A stretch of 63,601 bases of DNA from Alphaproteobacteria bacterium (GTDB lineage: Bacteria; Pseudomonadota; Alphaproteobacteria; Rhodobacterales; Rhodobacteraceae). Below are positions 51,100 to 61,434 of this stretch, in pieces. The notes under the pieces are model-generated. The model saw nothing but the letters and a program-made list of their open reading frames with translations. It searched no databases and was not told the origin of the DNA. Both the position numbers and the translations under genes were made by a program. Numbering within the stretch: the first letter of the stretch is position 1; every line of letters begins with the position of its first letter. The stretch spans positions 1-63,601 of the forward strand of contig JAUIHM010000006.1 of assembly GCA_030432315.1 (NCBI GenBank), written 5' to 3'.

Positions 51100-51630
51100 T
51101 CAGCCGACGATCATCTGCCGCATCCGAAGCTGTTCGTACTCCAGCTCCTGCAGCCGGAATTTCACCACGTCGCCGATGGTAATGACGCCTGCAAGCCTGC
51201 CGTCCTCGATCACCGGCAGGTGTCTAAACCTGCCCTCTGTCATTCTGTGCAGCATTTCCAAGAGCGTCTCATCCGGCGAACATGTGACCGGATCCGGTGT
51301 CATTACTTCCGAGACCGAAAGATCCAGTGCCGCTGCCCCCGTCTCGGCAAGGCGGCGCACCACGTCACGTTCCGAAAGAATACCGACGAGATCCCCTTCG
51401 GAGGCAATCACGACCACCGCGCCGATATGATGTTCCTTGAGCAGCGTCAGCGCTTCGGTCACGCTGGCGCCGGGCCCCACCGAGAACACCCTCCGGCCCT
51501 TTTCCGCGAGGACGGTCGCAACGTTTGCGGCGTCCTTCGGGTCCTTTAGGGAAGACTCGGCAGTTTGGGTATAGGTCATTTTCTTTTCATGGTCAGCCTT
51601 GAGGGGAGGACGGTACGAACTCGGTGCCAT
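51100..51630 (-). CDS. CBS-domain-pair protein
   Basis: 176 residues from ATG at 51630, preceded by AGGAGA at 6 nt; this start is favoured over ATG 51579. Two CBS domains: VFSVGPGASVTEALTLLKEH with VGILSERDVVRRLAE, and VMTPDPVTCSPDETLLEML with LAGVITIGDVVKFRLQE. Such stand-alone Bateman modules bind adenosyl ligands and sense cell energy. Target unknown. Divergent from gabD. Confidence 0.92.
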   Translation of the reverse strand: MAPSSYRPPLKADHEKKMTYTQTAESSLKDPKDAANVATVLAEKGRRVFSVGPGASVTEALTLLKEHHIGAVVVIASEGDLVGILSERDVVRRLAETGAAALDLSVSEVMTPDPVTCSPDETLLEMLHRMTEGRFRHLPVIEDGRLAGVITIGDVVKFRLQELEYEQLRMRQMIVG

Positions 51631-51847
51631 GCAAATTCTCCTGTGTTCGAGGTCATCGCGCGGGTGCGGCCTGTGCCATCTCCGGAGGCAGTCTAGCGCG
51701 GTTTGCCTTCGTTGCCAGAAAAATCAATCCCTCGCGAACCAGGGAATAATCCTGTTCCTCGCGAAGAGGTCAAAGACAACCGGACGCAATGCGATTAGGA
51801 TGCGCCCCGACGGGACAGTCACCGGACGTTCAGAGGAGGCACTAGAC

Positions 51848-53326
51848 ATGTTGGACCAAACCGACCTGAGATCGATGCTTAAAGATCCGGATCTTCTGCG
51901 GGCACAGGCGTTCGTCGCAGGGGAATGGACGGATGCGGACAGCGGTGCCGTGTTCGAAGTGACGAACCCCGCGAGGGGAGATGTGGTCGGTACCGTGCCT
52001 GACCTTGGAGAGGCCGAAATCAACCGCGCGATTGACGCGGCCTACACGGCGCAGAAGGCCTGGGCCGCCCGGACCGGCAAGGAGCGCGCCGCGGTCCTGC
52101 GCCGGTGGTTCGACCTCATGGTCGAGAATGCCGACGATCTTGCCGCTATTCTCACGGCCGAAATGGGCAAGCCGCTGGCCGAGGCCAAGGGCGAAATCAT
52201 GTATGGCGCCAGTTTTATCGAATGGTTTGGCGAGGAGGCGAAACGCGTTTACGGAGAAACCATTCCCGGTCACCAGCCGGACAAGCGTATCGTCGTCATC
52301 AAGCAGCCCATCGGCGTTGCTGCATCCATCACTCCGTGGAATTTTCCCAATGCGATGATTGCCCGCAAGGCAGGCCCTGCGTTGGCGGTGGGCTGTGCCT
52401 TCGTCGCCAAACCGGCCGGAGAAACGCCGCTTTCCGCACTGGCCATGGCGGTTCTGGCAGAACGCGCGGGTCTGCCCAAAGGGGTTTTGAGTGTCGTTAC
52501 CTCGAAATCGAGTTCAAAGGTCGGTAAGCTGTTCTGCTCCAGCCCCAAGGTGCGCAAACTGACCTTCACCGGCTCCACCGAAGTCGGACGTATCCTGCTG
52601 GCCCAGGCGTCAGAGCAGGTGCTGAAGTGCTCGATGGAACTTGGCGGCAATGCGCCGTTCATCGTGTTTGACGACGCTGACGTTGATGCGGCGGTTCAGG
52701 GGGCACTGATCGCCAAGTTTCGCAACAACGGTCAGACCTGCGTCTGCGCCAATCGCATTTACGTCCAGTCCGGTATCGCTGAAGAGTTTGCACGAAAACT
52801 CGCCGACGCCATCAGTTCGGACCTCCATGTCGGTGACGGTTTTGAAAGAGGTATCAATACTGGACCGCTGATTACCGAATCCGCGGTGGAAAAGGTCGAA
52901 CAGCACATTGCGGATGCGACCGGAAAGGGTGCGAAGGTGCTGCTCGGCGGCAACCGTCACAGTCTGGGAGGCACGTTTTTTGAGCCTACCGTGCTCACCG
53001 GCGTCACCAGGGACATGCTGGTCGCCACCGACGAAACCTTCGGACCACTGGCACCAATTTTCACGTTCGATGACGAGGATGATGTGGTCGAGCAGGCGAA
53101 TGACACCATCTTCGGTTTGGCCGCCTACTTCTATGCCCGGGATCTTGGTCGGGTCTGGCGCGTGGCCGAGGCGCTGGAATATGGCATGGTAGGCATCAAT
53201 ACCGGCCTCATGGCTACGGAGGTAGCCCCGTTCGGAGGCGTCAAGCAGTCGGGTTTGGGTCGCGAAGGCTCACATCATGGTACGGAGGATTACCTGGAAA
53301 TGAAGTACCTCTGCATGAACATATGA
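51848..53326 (+). CDS. gabD: Succinate-semialdehyde dehydrogenase (NADP+)
   Basis: 492 residues from ATG at 51848 with GAGGAGG upstream. ALDH with GVAASITPWNFPNAMIARKA, Glu in CSMELGGNAPFIVFDDAD, nucleophile Cys in NNGQTCVCANRIYVQSG, and MGKPLAEAKGEI and GYEGKINTG-like wording of GabD (GINTGLMATEVAPFGGVKQS). Oxidises succinate semialdehyde to succinate. Its last codons overlap a short open frame (53323-53430) by 4 nt. Confidence 0.93.
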   Translation: MLDQTDLRSMLKDPDLLRAQAFVAGEWTDADSGAVFEVTNPARGDVVGTVPDLGEAEINRAIDAAYTAQKAWAARTGKERAAVLRRWFDLMVENADDLAAILTAEMGKPLAEAKGEIMYGASFIEWFGEEAKRVYGETIPGHQPDKRIVVIKQPIGVAASITPWNFPNAMIARKAGPALAVGCAFVAKPAGETPLSALAMAVLAERAGLPKGVLSVVTSKSSSKVGKLFCSSPKVRKLTFTGSTEVGRILLAQASEQVLKCSMELGGNAPFIVFDDADVDAAVQGALIAKFRNNGQTCVCANRIYVQSGIAEEFARKLADAISSDLHVGDGFERGINTGPLITESAVEKVEQHIADATGKGAKVLLGGNRHSLGGTFFEPTVLTGVTRDMLVATDETFGPLAPIFTFDDEDDVVEQANDTIFGLAAYFYARDLGRVWRVAEALEYGMVGINTGLMATEVAPFGGVKQSGLGREGSHHGTEDYLEMKYLCMNI

Positions 53327-53430
53327 TCGCAGATCCACAGCAGGATTTTTCGAACCTGACGGGTGGCCATTCGGAAAAGGGTGGCCAGCCAGGATCGGTA
53401 TGCCGGATTTCGGGCACTTGCTCGGAATGA
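53323..53430 (+). CDS. Candidate 35-aa peptide upstream of the YcaO gene
   Basis: ATG at 53323 overlaps the gabD stop (ATGA). The peptide starts MIADPQQDFSNL, has two Gly-Gly pairs (LTGGHSEKGGQPG) and ends GSVCRISGTCSE with two Cys and several Ser/Thr, the residues that YcaO enzymes of the azoline type modify. No clear ribosome-binding site; translation would depend on coupling to gabD. Resemblance to a precursor peptide is suggestive only; it may be chance. Confidence 0.3.
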   Translation: MIADPQQDFSNLTGGHSEKGGQPGSVCRISGTCSE

Positions 53431-53496
53431 TAGTCCGGTTCATTGCCCAGCCCCAAAAACGGACAGACGGGTAGCGAATTGGACAGACGGGTGGCC
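53358..53496 (+). repeat. Repeated GACGGGTGGCC-type elements upstream of YcaO-SARP
   Basis: Four copies on the plus strand: GACGGGTGGCC 53358-53368, AAAGGGTGGCC 53376-53386, GACGGGTAGC 53466-53475 and GACGGGTGGCC 53486-53496. The two downstream copies extend to a perfect 12-bp direct repeat GGACAGACGGGT (53461-53472, 53481-53492) with a 20-bp period, ending 36 nt before the YcaO start. The first pair is 18 bp apart. SARP regulators bind direct repeats about two helical turns apart, so this is a candidate operator. Confidence 0.55.
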
Positions 53497-53531
53497 GGAG
53501 CAGGGTCGCAGGAGTTGCGACGGGAGGTGGA

Positions 53532-54659
53532 ATGACGGCGGCGCAGTATTCGAATCCGGACGGAGTGGAGCGGCTCTGCTTCCGGCTCGGATCTGACGCT
53601 GCACCCGGGACGCCGCTCCGTGCATTGCTGTTGCGGTTGGATTGGGTGGCACCCCTGCCAAACTCCGCCGCACCGGGATTTGTCTACCTCGCCGGGGCGC
53701 TGCTGGGCGAAGCGGTGGGCGGGGGTGGCGCCACCCTGCTGGAAGCTTCCTGGAAACTTGCCGGTGAAGCGGCCGAAACCATCGCCAAACATTCCGTCCA
53801 ACCGTCATCCGGCTTGCCAGGTCTCCCGGCCGTCGACCGGACCTGGCAGCGCAACATGTCCGGTCCCAGGCTCGCGGCCCGTCGTCTACCGGATGAGGTG
53901 CCGATCTCGGTTCCCGCCTGTGCGGTCGCGGCTTCTGCTGACATTGCAGATTTTCTTGACCCGTCCGCGCCTCAAAGAAGTCTCGGCATGGCCGCAGGTG
54001 TGACAGTTGACGAGGCGCGGTGCGCCGGCCTGCTGGAACTGGTTGAGCGGGACGCGGTCGCCCGGTGGTGGCTGCATCAGCAACCGCCGCATTCGGTCGA
54101 CCTTCGGCATGCCGCTCCCGTGGCTGACCTGGTTGCGGCGCTGCGCAATGGTGCCGACGCGCCGCAGCGTGCCACCGGCCTGCTGCTGCTGGGATCACCA
54201 ACCGGAGTTCCCGTAGTGTGTGCCTTTTCGCTGGAACCGGACGGTCGGGGCCTGGCAGTGGGATTCCGTGCCGCATTCGATGTGGAATCCGCTGCCCGCG
54301 GCGCGGTGCTGGAAATGATGCAGATGGAGATTGCCCTTTTCCTTGCGCGTCACCGTAGCGCGAGAGGCGGCCGGACAGAGGGGGATTCCGCGGCGCTTGA
54401 GCGGGCTGCCCTCCGTGTCAGCGATCTGCCGGAATTCCGACCGCAACCTGCAATTGCAGCATCGGTCACCGTTCGCAGCCTGAACGATCTTCTGGACTCA
54501 CTTGCTGCGCAGGAAATGACAATTCTGGCAGCCGATCTCGCGGTATCGGTTGACGGCATTGCAGTAAGCAAGGTCTTCTGTGACCGGCTGATCCCGTTTC
54601 CGGCCGGAAACGACAGTTCCAAAACGCGCACTCTCGGGTCAACGGTACGCCTGCTTTGA
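53532..54659 (+). CDS. YcaO-like protein (SagD/TOMM cyclodehydratase type)
   Basis: 375 residues, ATG at 53532 after GGGAGGTGG. YcaO enzymes use ATP to activate backbone amides, forming azolines or thioamides. Seen here: LEASWKLAGEAAETIA (the KxxGExxE helix, about 75), SLGMAAGVTVDEA then GLLELVERDAVARWW (about 149-180), the typical SagD-like ERDAVA.WW, VPVVCAFSLEPDG, and LEMMQMEIAL (ExxQ, about 258). C-terminus has only a short IPFPAG, not the extended Pro-rich tail of TOMM cyclodehydratases. No fused or adjacent ocin-ThiF/C domain and no TfuA. Coupled to the SARP gene by a TTGA overlap. Confidence 0.82.
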   Translation: MTAAQYSNPDGVERLCFRLGSDAAPGTPLRALLLRLDWVAPLPNSAAPGFVYLAGALLGEAVGGGGATLLEASWKLAGEAAETIAKHSVQPSSGLPGLPAVDRTWQRNMSGPRLAARRLPDEVPISVPACAVAASADIADFLDPSAPQRSLGMAAGVTVDEARCAGLLELVERDAVARWWLHQQPPHSVDLRHAAPVADLVAALRNGADAPQRATGLLLLGSPTGVPVVCAFSLEPDGRGLAVGFRAAFDVESAARGAVLEMMQMEIALFLARHRSARGGRTEGDSAALERAALRVSDLPEFRPQPAIAASVTVRSLNDLLDSLAAQEMTILAADLAVSVDGIAVSKVFCDRLIPFPAGNDSSKTRTLGSTVRLL

Positions 54660-56611
54660 ATGAAACGCTGGAAAAACTCCCCGTCCGTATCTGGGTAACG
54701 GGGAACATGCGGCTTGAAATCGGCGGCACGTCGGTCGGCCTGTCGAGCCGAAAGTCGCTTGCGCTGTTGACCTATCTCGCACTGCAGCCCAATCAGCGCG
54801 AAAGCCGTGAGCGGATCTCTACCGTTCTCTGGAGCGATTCCGGTCCCGATCAGGCGCGCGGCGCCCTTAGGACGACGCTGCGACGCCTCAAACAGGATCT
54901 CGGACCGGCGGGCGACCTGATCGCAGCGGACCGCACCGAACTGCACCTCGCCCATCCGGTCGATCTCGACATGCTTGAGGCAATTCGGCAGGCGGAACAG
55001 GGTCGGGCCCCGGCCTTCCTGTCATCAGCAACCGGCGACATGACACGCTGCCTGTCGGACATCGAAGGACTCGATCCGGATTTTGATCTATGGATCGCTG
55101 TTCAGCGGGAGCGCCTCGGCGCGCGGCTGGTCACGGCACTGGAAAAGGCGATGCTGATCGCGTCGAACCCCATGGCGAAGCTGGCGATTGCCGAAGCGCT
55201 CGAACGTGCGGAGCCCACCCATGAGGGTGCCTGTCGCGCGGCCATGGAAGCTTACATGGAGATCGGAGACACGGCCCAGGCCATGCGTGCCTACGAGCGC
55301 CTGTGGAAACGTCTTGACGAGGAGCTGGATGTCGAACCCTCGGCCGCCACCCAGGACCTCTATGTTGCGATCAAGACCGGTACGGCACGGCCGGCGCTTG
55401 GTGGCGGACCTGCCGGGGTCGACGATGTCCTTGCGCCCATTGCCATCGTCGTGGAACCGGTGGAAGGACAGAAACTGTCCGGAGACTTCGATTTCTTCGG
55501 GACGGTGTTTCGCGACGAGATGATCGCTGCCCTGTCCCGGTTTCGGGAATGGCTGGTGATTGACGGGGATCAGACCCAGGGTTCACCGCCGGGCGCCTAT
55601 CGGGTCTATTCGCTCCGTGTGATGCTGCATCCGGTACAGGACAGTGTGGCGGTCGCTCTGAAGCTTGTGGATAGCCGCGACAGTCACATTGTCTGGGCCG
55701 ACCGCTATGCCGTGACCCTCGACGGAATCGCTGCCTTGCACCGGACCGCGCTGCGCCAGCTCGCGGTTGCTCTCAATGTTCACCTGTCGATGCCGCGCCT
55801 TCTCTCGGCGCGCGATATCGACAGTCCGATGGGCCGGAAGTACGAAAAGTGGATGCAGGCGCAGGCCCTCGCCAGTGAATGGCGGCCGACGAGTGAGGAA
55901 CGCGCCAACCGGCTGCTGGAGGAACTGATCGGTTCAATTCCCAATTTCGCTCCGGCGATGGTGGCGCTGGCGCAAAGCATCAACGCCCGTCCGATCATTT
56001 TTCCCGGTCAGCGCCATACGGCGGAGCAAATCGCCGAATGTCTTGATCTGACTGCCCGTGCGGTGAGCATCGATCCCCTCGATTCCCGTACCCACCTCGC
56101 CAGAGCCTGGGCGCACTCGCTGTCAGGCTCGCATTCGGCGGCGCTCAGCCACTTTGATCTCGCGCTGGATCTGAATGAGAACGATCCGTGGACCATTATT
56201 TCCGCCGGACTTGGCTTCGCCTTTGCCGGGGAGTCGTCCCGGGCATCCGGTCTCGTTGCCCAGGCGACCGCATTCGGAATGCGGCATTCGCGTGCCGCCC
56301 AAGGCTACATTGCGACCGCCTCGTATCTGACGGGACGGTATGCGACGACCGTGTCCGCCGCGGAAATTGCCGGCGATGCGATCATCAATCTTCCTGCGTG
56401 GCACGCCGCAAGTCTGATGCATCTGGGTGACCCTGTCGGCGCCGCCGCGGCGATGCGCCGGTTTTTTGAACTCAGCCGGGAAAACTGGACAAGACCCGAT
56501 GTCCCCGATGACACGGAAATCATCGACTGGTTCATGGGGTGCTTTCCGATCAAATCCGACGCCGTGAAAAGCGAACTCCGCAACAGGTTGACCGAGATTG
56601 CGACTCTGTGA
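54656..56611 (+). CDS. SARP-like regulator (wHTH-BTAD-TPR)
   Basis: 651 residues from TTG at 54656, overlapping the YcaO stop (54657-54659). Order: OmpR-type winged helix (about 8-98; RKSLALLTYLALQPNQRESR, WSDSGPDQARGALRTTLRRL), BTAD helices (about 105-240; EPTHEGACRAAMEAYMEIGD, ELDVEPSAATQDLY), a FlgO/adenylate-cyclase-like alpha-beta domain (about 258-375) and a C-terminal TPR-like array (about 385-650). No NB-ARC domain. SARPs activate secondary-metabolite genes in actinomycetes; this architecture occurs in proteobacteria too. Probably regulates the YcaO unit and perhaps the facing peroxidase. Confidence 0.88.
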   Translation: MNETLEKLPVRIWVTGNMRLEIGGTSVGLSSRKSLALLTYLALQPNQRESRERISTVLWSDSGPDQARGALRTTLRRLKQDLGPAGDLIAADRTELHLAHPVDLDMLEAIRQAEQGRAPAFLSSATGDMTRCLSDIEGLDPDFDLWIAVQRERLGARLVTALEKAMLIASNPMAKLAIAEALERAEPTHEGACRAAMEAYMEIGDTAQAMRAYERLWKRLDEELDVEPSAATQDLYVAIKTGTARPALGGGPAGVDDVLAPIAIVVEPVEGQKLSGDFDFFGTVFRDEMIAALSRFREWLVIDGDQTQGSPPGAYRVYSLRVMLHPVQDSVAVALKLVDSRDSHIVWADRYAVTLDGIAALHRTALRQLAVALNVHLSMPRLLSARDIDSPMGRKYEKWMQAQALASEWRPTSEERANRLLEELIGSIPNFAPAMVALAQSINARPIIFPGQRHTAEQIAECLDLTARAVSIDPLDSRTHLARAWAHSLSGSHSAALSHFDLALDLNENDPWTIISAGLGFAFAGESSRASGLVAQATAFGMRHSRAAQGYIATASYLTGRYATTVSAAEIAGDAIINLPAWHAASLMHLGDPVGAAAAMRRFFELSRENWTRPDVPDDTEIIDWFMGCFPIKSDAVKSELRNRLTEIATL

Positions 56612-56692
56612 CGCGGCCAGAACCCTCAGTTCATTCTCGATTCTGGCCGAACCGGACCCTGCCGGTCTGGACGGGAGCCGCCGCTGCACGGT

Positions 56693-58528
56693 TCACTTGC
56701 ACTGGGCAATCGTGTAGTCACCTACTCTTGCCATCAGGAGATCAAAAGGTGTGAGAACCGGGCTGAATCCGGGGCGGTAAAAGTCTTCATAGAACTGCGG
56801 CAACGGATATGACCCTTCCATTTCCGGGTTCAGCATGGCGGCGACACTCTCATCGAGCATTTCCTTTGCCGGAAGCCGCATGACGAAGGTATCCAGAGAT
56901 GCCTGGCAGAAAACCACTTTCTCGATCCGGTCCGGGACCACTGCAATCCCGTGCAGTTGCCGTTTGAGGTCGGCAACGGTCTCCGGGCGGGACTTGGGAT
57001 CGGCGGTCCATTGGGCGACCAGTTTACCCATTTCAATGTAATCGGCGACTTCCACACGCGGGATCGGTTCCTTGGCGTCCGTCTTGGCATCCAACATCGG
57101 ATTTCCCCCTTTGGTCTCATACTGCAGTGCATGAGGTGATTCTTGTTTTGTTGTCCTGGCGACCAGTTCTGCGCCGTCGGAAAACTTGTAGTGGTTCTGC
57201 AGAAAGGTCAGAACCTCGGCCATCCGCCCGGGTGCGCCACCGGGAAACACTTCCGCGCGTGCAGTATCGACGGCCGTACCACTGTCAGAGACGGGCAGTG
57301 CGGATGCCAGATTCTCTCCCATGATGATTGACCCGAGGGCTCCGAGTGTCCGACCGCCGGTGTCTGCTTCCGCCTCCAGCATCAGATAGAGCGTCAGCGG
57401 CGGATCCGAGGCCAGACGTTTGCACATTTCCTGCTCCAAACCGGCGTTCCTGAGCCAGACCCGTATCGTCCGCTCCCAGTTTGCTGCGCCGAACCGTTTC
57501 GCCATCACTTCGGGATATCGTGACTGTGCATCGGACAGCAGCACCGACACCGGCCTCAAGCCGCCCGCGGTACAGGCGAGCAGGTCCTTCAGAACCATGC
57601 CATCCGTCTTCGTCTTCATCTGCTGCACATCCGTGAAGCCGAACGGTCGAGCGATGTGTGGTCCGAGCCGTCTTGCCATCTGTGGCGCGGAGGTCCCAAC
57701 CGGAAAGAATCGCGAAAACTCGACAAGCCAATCCTCCGTGAGCGGCATGTGGTGCGGTTGCCCCGTGCCGGTGTGCCGCACCAGACTGCGCAGACCGACC
57801 ACCGGCATTCGGTCGTTGAGAGCATAGATCTCCCGCACCAGATGGTGTCCCAGCCGCGCCACTCCGGCTTTGAATTCCACGCTCGTATCGACGGCCTTCG
57901 GCAGACTTGCGCTGCCGTCGAACAAGACCCGCGTTTCCGGCATCAGCCACGTATTCAGGACATCGGCGACGACAACATCCCGGTAAATCCCGAGGGTGAC
58001 GGCGCGTGCGAGATCAAACACTTCCGCGTTGCCGTGCGTCCGGGCCAGCGTCGACGCAACTGCATTGTGGAGCAGCGCCCAAATCGTCTGGACCTGACCC
58101 AGCAGCAGGTTGGAATCGGAAAAGGCGTTGGGCACCAGCACTTCGGTACGTGACTCCGAACCGTGCAGATCCAGATGCGGACAGGAGATCCGCGGCAGAT
58201 CCCGCGCCGCGCCCCACGCGGGTGAAGATGCGGTTGGACGCGTCCGTCCGATCCGCAACAGGTAGCGCCCGTCGCCCGGTCTCTCGGGTACCTGATAACA
58301 ACTCGCGTCGTTGGCGGGTCCGTCGCCATAGATGATTGCAAGATTGAGCTGACGCCTGTTTACCGCGTCGTGCCGGGAAGGCATGTCGAGGTCGTGGACG
58401 GCAAACTGCGCCAGGTAGGTGGAGCCGGCCGGAATGTCCGATGTTTTCTCCGGGCGCTCAGTGCTGCTTATTGCGCGCGCAACCGCTTCGAGAACGCCTT
58501 CGGGCAATGGATCGTCCACGCTGTTCAA
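56693..58528 (-). CDS. Animal-type heme peroxidase homologue with altered active site
   Basis: 611 residues from TTG at 58528 (AGGA 9 nt upstream). Superfamily blocks in order: IPAGSTYLAQFAVHDLD (distal His, about 50), LNLAIIYGDGPANDASCY, then VPNAFSDSNLLLGQVQTIWALLHNAVAS where the usual DPRNDEN is NAFSDSN (catalytic Arg and heme-ester Glu both missing), TSVEFKAGVARLGHHLVREI (proximal His) with ALND, WLVEFSRFFP, and PLTLYLMLEAEADTGG. No signal peptide, so cytoplasmic. Heme binding is likely, classic peroxidase chemistry doubtful. An extra C-terminal part of about 150 residues is not recognised. Convergent with the SARP gene, 81 nt apart. Confidence 0.8.
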   Translation of the reverse strand: MNSVDDPLPEGVLEAVARAISSTERPEKTSDIPAGSTYLAQFAVHDLDMPSRHDAVNRRQLNLAIIYGDGPANDASCYQVPERPGDGRYLLRIGRTRPTASSPAWGAARDLPRISCPHLDLHGSESRTEVLVPNAFSDSNLLLGQVQTIWALLHNAVASTLARTHGNAEVFDLARAVTLGIYRDVVVADVLNTWLMPETRVLFDGSASLPKAVDTSVEFKAGVARLGHHLVREIYALNDRMPVVGLRSLVRHTGTGQPHHMPLTEDWLVEFSRFFPVGTSAPQMARRLGPHIARPFGFTDVQQMKTKTDGMVLKDLLACTAGGLRPVSVLLSDAQSRYPEVMAKRFGAANWERTIRVWLRNAGLEQEMCKRLASDPPLTLYLMLEAEADTGGRTLGALGSIIMGENLASALPVSDSGTAVDTARAEVFPGGAPGRMAEVLTFLQNHYKFSDGAELVARTTKQESPHALQYETKGGNPMLDAKTDAKEPIPRVEVADYIEMGKLVAQWTADPKSRPETVADLKRQLHGIAVVPDRIEKVVFCQASLDTFVMRLPAKEMLDESVAAMLNPEMEGSYPLPQFYEDFYRPGFSPVLTPFDLLMARVGDYTIAQCK

Positions 58529-58998
58529 TGGACCCGTCCTGATCGCGCATGGCCACCTGTGTTTTCAGCGGTCCCGAATCCGGTCATTGCCTCCGCCCCA
58601 CTGATCCTTGATGAGAGCAAGCTCTAGCCAAGCCATCGTGACAGCAGCGTGACTCGACTCCCGGAGCGGACGAGTGGTGCGCGGTTCTGCATATGGCTGC
58701 GACATTTCCACAGATTTTTCGGATTTTTGCCAAAACAGATCCCCCAAACGTCAGCGTCTTCATCATACCTGATTCGCAACATTTCTTGCACGCTCATTGG
58801 CGACCCGGCAGGGAATGAATTGATCCAGCTCCCATGAAAATCGCTCTTGCCTTTCGGCGCGGCGATCAGCACATCTTTGAGTCGACTGTATCAAAGGTGC
58901 ATCAATTTGCGATTCCGCGCTTCCTTACCCACTCACTGCTTCGCCTCTGCCGATGGTTGTCCGTCTCTGGAGCGGAGCCGTACCCCAGGTCTCTGCTC
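58529..58998. other. Long divergent intergenic region, peroxidase / Gfo-Idh
   Basis: 470 nt, AT-richer than the neighbours around 58680-58900. Should hold the promoters of both genes. All three minus-strand frames are open over parts of it: 58624-58797 (57 codons, starts MSVQEMLRIRYDEDADVW) and 58584-58766 (60 codons, Cys-rich, MMKTLTFGGSVLAKIRKICG), but none has a convincing ribosome-binding site. On the minus strand AGGTGGCC and GGACGGGT sequences near 58535-58555 faintly recall the repeats upstream of YcaO. Confidence 0.5.
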
Positions 58999-60147
58999 AT
59001 GACGTCGGTGTTGCGCTACGGCATGATCGGCTGCGGGATGATGGGTATCGAGCATATCCGCAACATTGCGTTGCTGCCCGATACCGAAATCGCGGCAATT
59101 CATGAGCCCGACCCCGTCATGCGTCGGCAGGCCTCGCTGCTTGCTCCAGGCTGCGTCATGGCGGATTCTGTCGAGACCCTGCTCAGGGAGCCGTTGGATG
59201 CGATCGTCATCGCGAGCCCCAACCATTGCCACGCCGATCAGATTGCCCGCATCCTGGATCGTCAGCCGGTGCCGATGCTGGTGGAAAAGCCCGTCTGTAC
59301 GACGCTGGACCAGGTGACCGCGCTTTCAGGTCTGGCCCGGGAGGTCACGTCTCCGATCTGGGTCGGCATGGAATACCGCTACATGCCTCCGCTTGCCCGT
59401 CTGATAGCCCGCGCCCACTCGGCGACCGGCGGCGTTCGGATGCTCTCGATTCGCGAACACCGCTACCCCTTTCTGCAAAAAGTTGGCAATTGGAACAGGC
59501 TGAACCGGTACAGCGGCGGCACACTTGTCGAGAAATGCTGCCATTTTTTCGATCTGATGTGCGTCGTCACAGGTATGACGCCCGTGCGCGTTTACGCTTC
59601 CGCCGCTCAGGACGTGAACCATCTTGACGAGTCCATCAACGGGGAGCGTTCCGACATACTCGACAATGCCTATGTGACGGTGGACTTCGCCAGCGGCACG
59701 CGGGCGATGCTCGATCTCTGCATGTTCGCCGAAGGTGCGGCATACCAGGAAGAAATCGCCGTGACCGGTCCGAGTGGCCGGATCGAGGCGTTCATCCCGG
59801 GGCCGACCCGCTTTTGGGACGCTGCTGAACTGGGACCGCAACCGGTCCCGAAACTGGTGACAAGCCCACGCAGCCCCAAGGGCCCGGTGACCGAAGAGAT
59901 ACCCGTCGACCCCGAACTGCTCGCCGCGGGCGACCACAACGGATCGACCTTCTACCAGCACCGGCAGTTTCGCGCGGTATTGACCGGCAGTGGCTCGGTG
60001 GAAGTCAGCCTTGCCGACGGTCTGCGGGCGGTTGTCATGGGCCTCGCCGCCCAGCATTCCGCAGCAACGGGTGAAGCGGTTGACCTGACGACCGGTCCAT
60101 GGCGGCTTCCCCAGCGCCATACTGCGCCGGGTACACAGAACGGGTAG
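58999..60147 (+). CDS. Gfo/Idh/MocA-family oxidoreductase
   Basis: 382 residues from ATG at 58999 (MTSVLRYGMIGCGMMGIEHI); the open frame reaches back to 58834 but the extra 55 codons are unlike the family. NAD(P)-binding GMIGCGMMGIEHIRN, AIVIASPNHCHADQI, MLVEKPVCTTLDQV (the EKP motif), VGMEYRYMPPL, and catalytic-region GGTLVEKCCHFFDLM with His. Oxidises or reduces sugars or inositols. Divergent from the peroxidase gene; linkage to the YcaO unit is by position only. Confidence 0.9.
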   Translation: MTSVLRYGMIGCGMMGIEHIRNIALLPDTEIAAIHEPDPVMRRQASLLAPGCVMADSVETLLREPLDAIVIASPNHCHADQIARILDRQPVPMLVEKPVCTTLDQVTALSGLAREVTSPIWVGMEYRYMPPLARLIARAHSATGGVRMLSIREHRYPFLQKVGNWNRLNRYSGGTLVEKCCHFFDLMCVVTGMTPVRVYASAAQDVNHLDESINGERSDILDNAYVTVDFASGTRAMLDLCMFAEGAAYQEEIAVTGPSGRIEAFIPGPTRFWDAAELGPQPVPKLVTSPRSPKGPVTEEIPVDPELLAAGDHNGSTFYQHRQFRAVLTGSGSVEVSLADGLRAVVMGLAAQHSAATGEAVDLTTGPWRLPQRHTAPGTQNG

Positions 60148-60222
60148 TCCGCCCGACATATTCCACCGGGCGTGCTCTTCATGTCCGGGTGCGGGCTTTC
60201 CTCCCGGGCGTTACCGCCGGCT

Positions 60223-60813
60223 TCAGAAGTCCTTGAGCGCTCCGAAATCCATCGCCTCAAGATAGGCCTGCTTGTCCTCCAGGCTCGCGCTTCCATTGAC
60301 GCTGACGAGGATGCGGTTGTCTACCACGCCCTGAAGTTCGCCGTCATTGTTGCCGAACTGGGTTCGCTGGATCCTGATCGGCTTTCCACCGGTCAGAGCA
60401 GACATGCCAGACACCATCGCGCCGATGCTGCTGATCATGGGAGAATTCGCCACAAGGGTTATCGTCAGTTCGCTGTCATCACTGCGGTAACTTGCCGCGG
60501 CTGCCGTTCCACCGCCAAACATCGCCATTGCCATGCCTGTGCCGTCTGCCTGTGCTGCTTCCTTTTCCCAACCGGGCAGGGCGTCAGGAAGAAAGTTCGA
60601 TAGACTGTCAGACTTGATTTCGGCCAGCAGCTTGACCGCATAATCCAGTTCTTCGCGTGCCCCGGAAATGTCGCCCTCGTTGTAAAGCTCCATCGCACTG
60701 TTGACGACATCCGTAAATTCATCCGCGTCGACCGCGACGGAACTGACGATCAACACACACGCAGCGCCCAAAAGTCGTCTCACGATCTTTACCTCCACTT
60801 TGTTGATCGACAC
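60223..60813 (-). CDS. Exported conserved hypothetical protein
   Basis: 196 residues with signal sequence RRLLGAACVLIVSSVAVDA. Mature part: ELYNEGDISGAREELDYAVK (TPR-like), FLPDALPGWEKEAA, MFGGGTAAAASYRSDDSELT and ILVSVNGSASLEDKQAYLEA. This pattern recurs in periplasmic hypothetical proteins of many proteobacteria; function unknown. 45 nt downstream of the DUF2244 gene on the same strand. Confidence 0.75.
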   Translation of the reverse strand: MSINKVEVKIVRRLLGAACVLIVSSVAVDADEFTDVVNSAMELYNEGDISGAREELDYAVKLLAEIKSDSLSNFLPDALPGWEKEAAQADGTGMAMAMFGGGTAAAASYRSDDSELTITLVANSPMISSIGAMVSGMSALTGGKPIRIQRTQFGNNDGELQGVVDNRILVSVNGSASLEDKQAYLEAMDFGALKDF

Positions 60814-60858
60814 GGTTGAAGTCCGCCGCGTGAATTTATCAGAGAATTCCAGTGAGTT

Positions 60859-61434
60859 CTACCGCTGCACGTTCCGAAGCCGCGCCAGTGCGGTTTCGAG
60901 TTCGTCGTGCACCGCTTCCCGCTCCCAGGGCGACAGGAACGCGCCCAGTTCGATTTCCCGCCCGTTTCCCCGAAGGGTAAGGTACTTCTCGATCCTCGCG
61001 TTCTCGTGCAGCCTAACAGTGACCCAGTACGGGTTCGCGCTCCATTCCAGAATGCGGCCATCGGTTTCGTATCGCACGACCCGGATACAGTCGGGCCAGA
61101 GGCTGAGGGTTTCCCGCAGCCTTGCATCCGTGTAGTTTCGCTTCAGGGCAAAATAGAGCGCCAAAAGTGTCGCAAGCAGGAACGGCAGCATGCCCCAGGC
61201 GGCCTGTGTCCGGGCGAGGCCGATGAGCGGCAATGCCAGGCCGAAGCCCGCGATGCCAAGCACCACCGACAGGCCGCGCCAGCCGAATGACCGGTGTGGC
61301 TGCAGACTGACCTGATAGATGGGGGGATCCTGGCGTTCTGACGAAGTTGGGGCGGACACTGGTGTGCCCGCCCCTTCTGCAAGTCCGTCTGACTGTCTAT
61401 CCTTGTCGGTCAATGGCTTTTGGGATGATCCCAC
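60859..61434 (-). CDS. DUF2244 membrane protein
   Basis: 191 residues. Hydrophilic N-terminus, [20 protein letters not shown] start of domain, two membrane helices (about 52-100), then a cytosolic part with [33 protein letters not shown]. These match DUF2244, a family found beside cytochrome oxidase genes. ATG at 61434 lies within the last codons of ctaD (25-nt overlap), so it is translated with it. Confidence 0.85.

Follow-up and report, generated by a model that had tools for sequence, protein, structure and literature searches.

The SrpE/SrpC/SrpI proteusin pathway combines a long, partly folded leader and a short C-terminal core with YcaO-made thiazolines and a brominase free of a RiPP (ribosomally synthesized and post-translationally modified peptide) recognition element (RRE), and serves as a precedent for combining these four elements (PMC10858898). 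A cassette that invites comparison with it is found in contig JAUIHM010000006.1 of an alphaproteobacterium of the Rhodobacteraceae (genome 86.6% complete, 3.37 Mb), of which the whole analysed stretch of 63,601 nucleotides is called the window. The cassette comprises four genes, encoding a stand-alone YcaO, a SARP-like regulator, a relative of animal haem peroxidases and a small protein with a conserved C-terminal tail. It is proposed, with a probability of about 0.55, that the YcaO and then the peroxidase relative modify the tail of the small protein. In contrast to the proteusin pathway, the small protein matches no NHLP, NCBIfam, Pfam or solved fold, a haem peroxidase and a SARP are present where the known pathway has a flavin brominase, and the tail carries a single Cys and is otherwise nearly fixed.

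The solved chains nearest to the cassette YcaO by sequence profile are the cyanobactin heterocyclases LynD and TruD. These enzymes act on Cys and have an N-terminal E1-like/RRE part, which is missing from the cassette YcaO, its match being confined to residues 398–749 of LynD. The bottromycin and YcaO-TfuA thioamide pathways also use a YcaO without a C protein; here, however, no TfuA was found among the eight window genes around the YcaO (51103–61434), no TfuA, radical SAM or methyltransferase family recurs across 16 representative loci, and the precursor is unlike theirs. The C protein/ocin-ThiF partner of azol(in)e RiPPs (TOMM) is likewise absent by Pfam from the same eight genes, none being fused or adjacent to the YcaO, and does not recur among the 16 loci. 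The peroxidase shares its fold, the distal Gln and His and the proximal His with myeloperoxidase, lactoperoxidase and the Cyanobacterium TDX16 peroxidase 8s6c. It differs from these enzymes by its context, a YcaO and a tail protein, by the replacement of the distal Arg in the window's genus (kept in 0/5), and by the absence (0/51) of the Asp that carries the haem ester in mammalian peroxidases. The features of the locus are as follows.

53532..54659, plus strand: stand-alone YcaO enzyme (PF02624, 108 bits; ExxER and ExxQ motifs; nearest solved relatives LynD/TruD)
54656..56611, plus strand: SARP-like regulator with a BTAD domain (58.4 bits) and a TPR-like C-terminal part
56693..58528, minus strand: whole peroxidase-like open reading frame (ORF) (PF03098, 27.7 bits for a cut-off of 25)
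57098..58528, minus strand: animal-type haem peroxidase domain (PF03098, 28.6 bits; profile matching myeloperoxidase, model matching cyanobacterial and mammalian peroxidases)
56693..57097, minus strand: small protein MLD...GDYTIAQCK of 134 residues, proposed substrate, fused in frame to the peroxidase and a gene of its own elsewhere
57095..57110, minus strand: internal ATG with Shine-Dalgarno-like AGGGGGAA, putative start of the free small protein (duplex of −10.7 kcal/mol with the anti-Shine-Dalgarno sequence, anti-SD)
56696..56722, minus strand: C-terminal tail GDYTIAQCK, proposed modification site, from tail conservation
58834..60147, plus strand: Gfo/Idh/MocA oxidoreductase, a neighbour outside the cassette (relative in 1 of 58 loci)

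Conservation and distribution of the cassette

The cassette is real, conserved and sparsely distributed, and it is undescribed in the literature searched. Its four families are neighbours, mostly with the peroxidase and small protein facing the SARP and YcaO. When named genomes were scanned with the small protein of Bradyrhizobium type, 41 loci emerged, of which 25 are titled Bradyrhizobium (including B. australiense, murdochi, jicamae, retamae, hereditatis, lablabi, valentinum, archetypum and algeriense) and 16 belong to Belnapia, a Craurococcus metagenome-assembled genome (MAG), other Acetobacteraceae and assorted MAGs. The peroxidase, small protein and SARP are present in all 41 and the YcaO in 38, a SARP relative lying directly beside it in each of these. 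In two of the three other loci the contig ends inside the SARP gene; in the third, L138, the contig continues and no YcaO was found. As the 41 loci were found via the small protein, they test whether it implies the rest of the cassette, not the reverse. Throughout these loci the peroxidase gene is followed by that of the small protein, and the SARP and YcaO genes come next on the opposite strand, giving a convergent arrangement.

Outside the window's genus, a profile scan of the stretches found the four genes together in 9/9 genomes that whole-genome searches with the small protein had brought up, one of which is also counted among the 41 (L108 and G955). The same convergent order is seen in eight of these nine and in the four full cassettes of the genus. 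In G394, and in a tenth, very divergent copy found through its SARP in G015, YcaO and peroxidase share a strand, with the YcaO upstream, and the SARP alone faces them, from the far side of the cassette. The candidate small protein of G015 (L051:9567-12736) is a 209-residue frame ending GEYNMRQCL, possibly an early-diverging lineage of the tail-protein family. Wherever a cassette has both genes, the small protein comes after the peroxidase on the same strand.

Small-protein profiles matched three of 394 genomes of the family (the window's own, G008, and G394 of another genus), four of 385 of the class (its own, G494, G497 and G631) and six of 398 of the phylum (its own and five others, all of the same class), hence the sparse distribution. 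That the same four gene families adjoin in far-apart families of the class goes beyond chance.

An earlier note on this DNA had listed a YcaO, a SARP-like gene, a peroxidase-like gene and a Gfo/Idh gene, all of which lie where it placed them, and had pointed to a 4-nt overlap of the first two, which is formed by the TTG start of the regulator and the YcaO stop. It regarded the YcaO-SARP pair and the peroxidase as one unit, a view that would fall if their homologues were never neighbours in other genomes; they adjoin in 38 of the 41 named-genome loci, so the unit is conserved. It also rightly held that the known YcaO partners are absent, both among the eight window genes and as recurring neighbours. 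The Gfo/Idh gene is not a member of the unit, a relative being present in only one of 58 loci; an aldehyde dehydrogenase has a relative in seven. The Gfo/Idh gene itself probably starts near 58999, because in the listed ORF its domain is reached only at residue 60. When ORFs of at least 100 residues were grouped across the 16 representative loci, wide sharing was seen for the four families and for a group of frames opposite the SARP gene; each of the remaining groups, which were inspected in part, links 3 to 7 loci, many consisting of frames opposite the four genes.

Irregular copies were also recorded. In G494 the YcaO runs off the contig. In G1033 (L079:12769-13129) the cassette YcaO is broken into fragments, the tail protein, peroxidase and SARP being open. 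G1022 has a second animal-type peroxidase with an FGQFVDHD motif beside the cassette (L080:14433-15728). G002, which has a full cassette already, holds a second cassette-type YcaO piece of ~150 residues running off the end of a 3.2-kb contig (G002:C86, L045:2770-3231), which is either a second copy or contamination.

The open-access literature searched holds no description of a YcaO-peroxidase-small protein-SARP cassette. No open-access paper was found that joins a YcaO with a heme peroxidase and a precursor peptide, or with an animal heme peroxidase, the spelling 'haem' not having been tried, and the combination of YcaO, SARP and precursor gave only a paper on bottromycin regulation (PMC7113386). 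Nor is the cassette described in the accessible parts of PMC8776678, PMC8120280, PMC4603692, PMC7470986, PMC12710340 and PMC10858898.

The small protein and its C-terminal tail

The peroxidase-like ORF, taken as a single gene in the earlier note, does contain a peroxidase domain (the PF03098 match is confined to residues 137–239), but consists of two proteins in one frame, at 57098–58528 and 56696–57097. The last 134 residues (56696–57097, minus strand) form a separate protein family. Whole-genome searches with the ORF matched its last 133–156 residues alone in G003, G004, G006 and G009, and in the cassettes seen outside the genus the peroxidase is a gene of its own. All genomes of the genus except G001 and G007, nine of 11, have the small protein, with 132–135 residues in aligned members; the window copy ends RVGDYTIAQCK. 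Its profile matched 93 protein clusters, and it is annotated 'hypothetical protein' wherever a source names it. Six members gave no Pfam or NCBIfam match better than E 0.09, and ten further members no NCBIfam match better than E 0.15. The NHLP leader family, which marks proteusins, was not matched in these searches at E up to 10, the HMMER filters dropping most matches above ~0.1.

In five genomes of the genus (the window's, G008, G010, G002 and G005) the small protein is fused in frame behind the peroxidase, and an ATG is kept at the junction in all five. The anti-SD duplexes at this site amount to −10.7, −11.8, −6.6, −6.6 and −10.2 kcal/mol, respectively, compared with a mean of −2.5 kcal/mol over 76 other in-frame ATGs of the five ORFs. 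Since none of these 76 is as strong as the junction site of the window, G008 or G005, a free small protein is likely produced from the internal start in these three. In G010 and G002, where three of the 76 ATGs and 5.5% of all positions reach the strength of the junction duplex, a free small protein is possible.

The AlphaFold2 model of the small protein, computed with 88 sequences (mean predicted local distance difference test, pLDDT, 84.3; predicted template modelling score, pTM, 0.76), has five helices, the last of which (117–130) runs into GDYTI and is followed by a loose end. It thus depicts a folded body with a loose end. No structure of the PDB or of viral proteins matched the model with E up to 0.001.

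The tail consensus is R-x-G-D-Y-T-I-x-X-C-x, and nine distant clusters (P0154, P0156–P0160 and P0162–P0164) all keep R-x-[GS]-D-Y-[TV]-I-x-x-C-x. Columns were compared from the C-terminus, without use of a tail pattern, in 102 of the 115 listed Bradyrhizobium-type proteins (those of 136–137 residues). The R, I, G, D, Y and C of the tail have zero entropy, T is found in 101 and S in 100 of the 102, and the X before the Cys, occupied by L, F, A, V, N, Y or I, reaches 2.56 bits, the second highest value of 136 columns. A pattern demanding D, T and C is matched by 112 of the 115 proteins; of the others, one has Met for Thr, one is cut off and one has a different tail. On a tree of 26 Bradyrhizobium-type taxa, the X column changes nine times, a maximum among the 132 columns that it shares with one other. 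One of the 27 loci of this type had been dropped from the tree by an extraction pattern demanding G, D, Y, T, S and C; scanned without that pattern, all 27 have these residues. Of 140 loci, many of them overlapping stretches of one place, 80 contain the tail pattern, each a single time; the same sequences reversed never do. All cassettes seen that keep both the Tyr and the Cys have them in the same Y-x4-C spacing. The tail holds one conserved Cys and a Thr and is not rich in Cys, Ser or Thr.

In the window's genus, the tail Tyr goes with the YcaO: it is present in 5/5 genomes with the cassette YcaO and in 0/4 with the small protein but without this YcaO, where it is replaced by Gln (G003), Ser (G004, G009) or His (G005); a one-sided Fisher test gives 0.008, uncorrected for kinship. 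The 41 named loci say little on the frequency of Tyr loss, because HAER[IV]GDY served as one of the two patterns scanned for. In a tree of the small-protein body, itself weakly supported, the four genomes do not group as a single clade. They carry other YcaOs, which score 20–59 bits on the cassette profile compared with at least 191 for full-length copies in the 41 loci. Among 76 genus-type tails (of 82, six fragments being dropped), the Cys is found in 32/33 tails with Tyr and in 12/43 others, again uncorrected for kinship. As for the peroxidase, G006 keeps the YcaO and the small protein without it and without an adjacent SARP, G003, G004 and G009 have the small protein without a peroxidase match, and in G005 (L047), which lacks the cassette YcaO, the distal His of the peroxidase is changed to Leu.

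Two of these genomes show YcaOs of another family ~0.7 and 3.3 kb from SARP/CadC-like regulators (G005, L093:9826-12750, and G009, L094:5640-11538, respectively), without peroxidase or small protein. They perhaps represent a separate YcaO-regulator pairing.

Enzymes and regulator of the cassette

The ATP and Mg motifs of YcaO enzymes are ExxER and ExxQ. The cassette enzyme belongs to this family (PF02624, 108 bits for a cut-off of 25.7), and its ATP site, the loss of which would have contradicted the earlier note, is kept: ExxER is present in 50/50 cassette proteins, and the Glu and Gln of ExxQ in 49/50 each, the exceptions being L066 (Asp) and L067 (His). The term 'SagD-like' used in that note is loose, as the SagD model TIGR03604 gives 78.8 bits for a cut-off of 219. 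Against solved chains, the YcaO profile scores 130 bits with LynD, 125 with TruD, 90 with MusD, 88 with MJ1094, 85 with 6ci7 and a weak 27 with Escherichia coli YcaO. A second YcaO in the window's own genome (G000:C154:31867-32772; L001, L046) is unrelated.

The peroxidase profile aligns with myeloperoxidase via the segments DTRSSEM and FRYGH; QLLDHD aligns too, in a stretch of negative score. With the active-site roles presumed to be those of the myeloperoxidase residues, the distal Gln is kept in 51/51, the distal His in 50/51 and the proximal His in 54/54 proteins, three of the 54 ending short of the distal columns. The distal Arg is kept in 46/46 peroxidases from outside the genus that reach its column and is replaced in all five of the genus. 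The enzyme, which had been called degenerate, is so in this Arg within the window's genus but not in the other three residues. The predicted model of the fused ORF matches animal-type peroxidases, and the L099 and L130 proteins score just below the Pfam cut-off for PF03098. SARP regulators combine an OmpR-type winged helix with a BTAD domain; in the SARP-like protein the BTAD domain is above cut-off, and the winged helix (Trans_reg_C) reaches 23.3 bits (24.0 in L099) for a cut-off of 26.2.

Proposed pathway and its alternatives

The most economical reading is that of a precursor with a folded leader, the tail of which would be modified by the YcaO and then by the peroxidase, under control of the SARP. 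The stand-alone YcaO would activate the peptide backbone adjacent to the Cys in the GDYTI-x-X-Cys tail and probably close X-Cys to a thiazoline. The haem-peroxidase relative would act second and oxidise the tail, on the azoline or on the Tyr. The SARP would switch the cassette on, and the body of the small protein would act as a folded leader or carrier. We infer that the small protein is the YcaO substrate and that an azoline is formed, rather than a thioamide or the product of another YcaO reaction. An azoline-forming YcaO places there the side chain of the residue directly before the Cys, which is why a hypervariable X before a conserved Cys fits such an enzyme. Since no protease or transporter family was seen recurring, the product may remain bound to the protein or be retained in the cell.

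Several observations weigh against this pathway. The association of Tyr with YcaO in the genus rests on nine genomes and is not corrected for kinship. Four genomes of the genus keep the small protein without the YcaO, three of them with the Cys, so that the body either has another use or decays slowly. Intact tails are kept in G1033, where the YcaO is broken, and in L138, where none is adjacent. The peroxidase is not always needed, as G006 has none, and classical peroxidase chemistry is doubtful in the genus because the distal Arg is lacking in 5/5. The tail hardly varies except at X and the last residue, and most RiPP cores vary more; X is not the sole variable column, one more tying with it on the tree; and the structure model sets GDYTI at a helix end. 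No protease, transporter or separate RRE was found, RREs not having been searched for as such.

The best surviving alternative retains the substrate and overlaps with the proposed pathway up to the last step, but supposes another chemistry: a thioamide or other YcaO product, or a Tyr-Cys cross-link made by the peroxidase. It is possible, if doubtful. Known stand-alone YcaOs that lack a C protein include makers of thioamides and amidines, and the fixed Y-x4-C spacing and the co-variation of Tyr and Cys would agree with it, but TfuA is missing from the eight window genes and does not recur, and the YcaO profile gives LynD and TruD 130 and 125 bits, against 87 and 85 bits for 6pe3 (MJ1094) and 6ci7, which we take to be archaeal thioamide-type YcaOs.

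A partner role for the small protein, which would stand in for C/ocin-ThiF or TfuA and dock its tail in the YcaO while a distant peptide is modified, is rather unlikely. No other candidate peptide family recurs by the cassette among ORFs of at least 100 residues, and the hypervariability of X between invariant residues fits a reaction site better than a docking site. These points are set against the modelled fold, a size above that of usual precursors, the near invariance of most of the tail and the persistence of the body in four genomes without the YcaO, all of which suit a partner. A peroxidase maturation or redox-stress module, with the small protein as peroxidase subunit or chaperone and the YcaO modifying the peroxidase, is improbable: it would explain the constant place of the small protein behind the peroxidase, on the same strand, in cassettes with both, and the fusion of the two in five genomes of the genus, but G006 keeps the small protein and YcaO, and G003, G004 and G009 the small protein, without a peroxidase match, and the internal start with its Shine-Dalgarno-like site argues for a free small protein.

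Modification of the tail by the YcaO and then the peroxidase remains the preferred reading. The peptide-modifying function proposed in the earlier note is better supported now, while still conjectural, and its likely substrate, at the 3' end of the 'peroxidase' ORF, had been missed; the finding is stronger than the initial claim in that a substrate candidate is gained and the Gfo/Idh gene is dropped. Much more tentatively, the cassette could make a new class of ribosomal product: a folded carrier whose single X-Cys tail would be converted to a thiazoline by a partner-less YcaO and oxidised by a myeloperoxidase-like enzyme, X serving as a species code in a signal read by the SARP.

What accompanies this stand-alone YcaO is a candidate substrate, a precisely located candidate site and an oxidase of unusual kind, and the genera concerned, such as Bradyrhizobium and Belnapia, include named strains. 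The candidate substrate is easily overlooked, as it matches none of the family models used and lies inside the peroxidase ORF in the window's genus. A new kind of ribosomal peptide pathway is predicted in many alphaproteobacteria, Bradyrhizobium among them; if this is true, animal-type haem peroxidases would join the enzymes that tailor ribosomal peptides.

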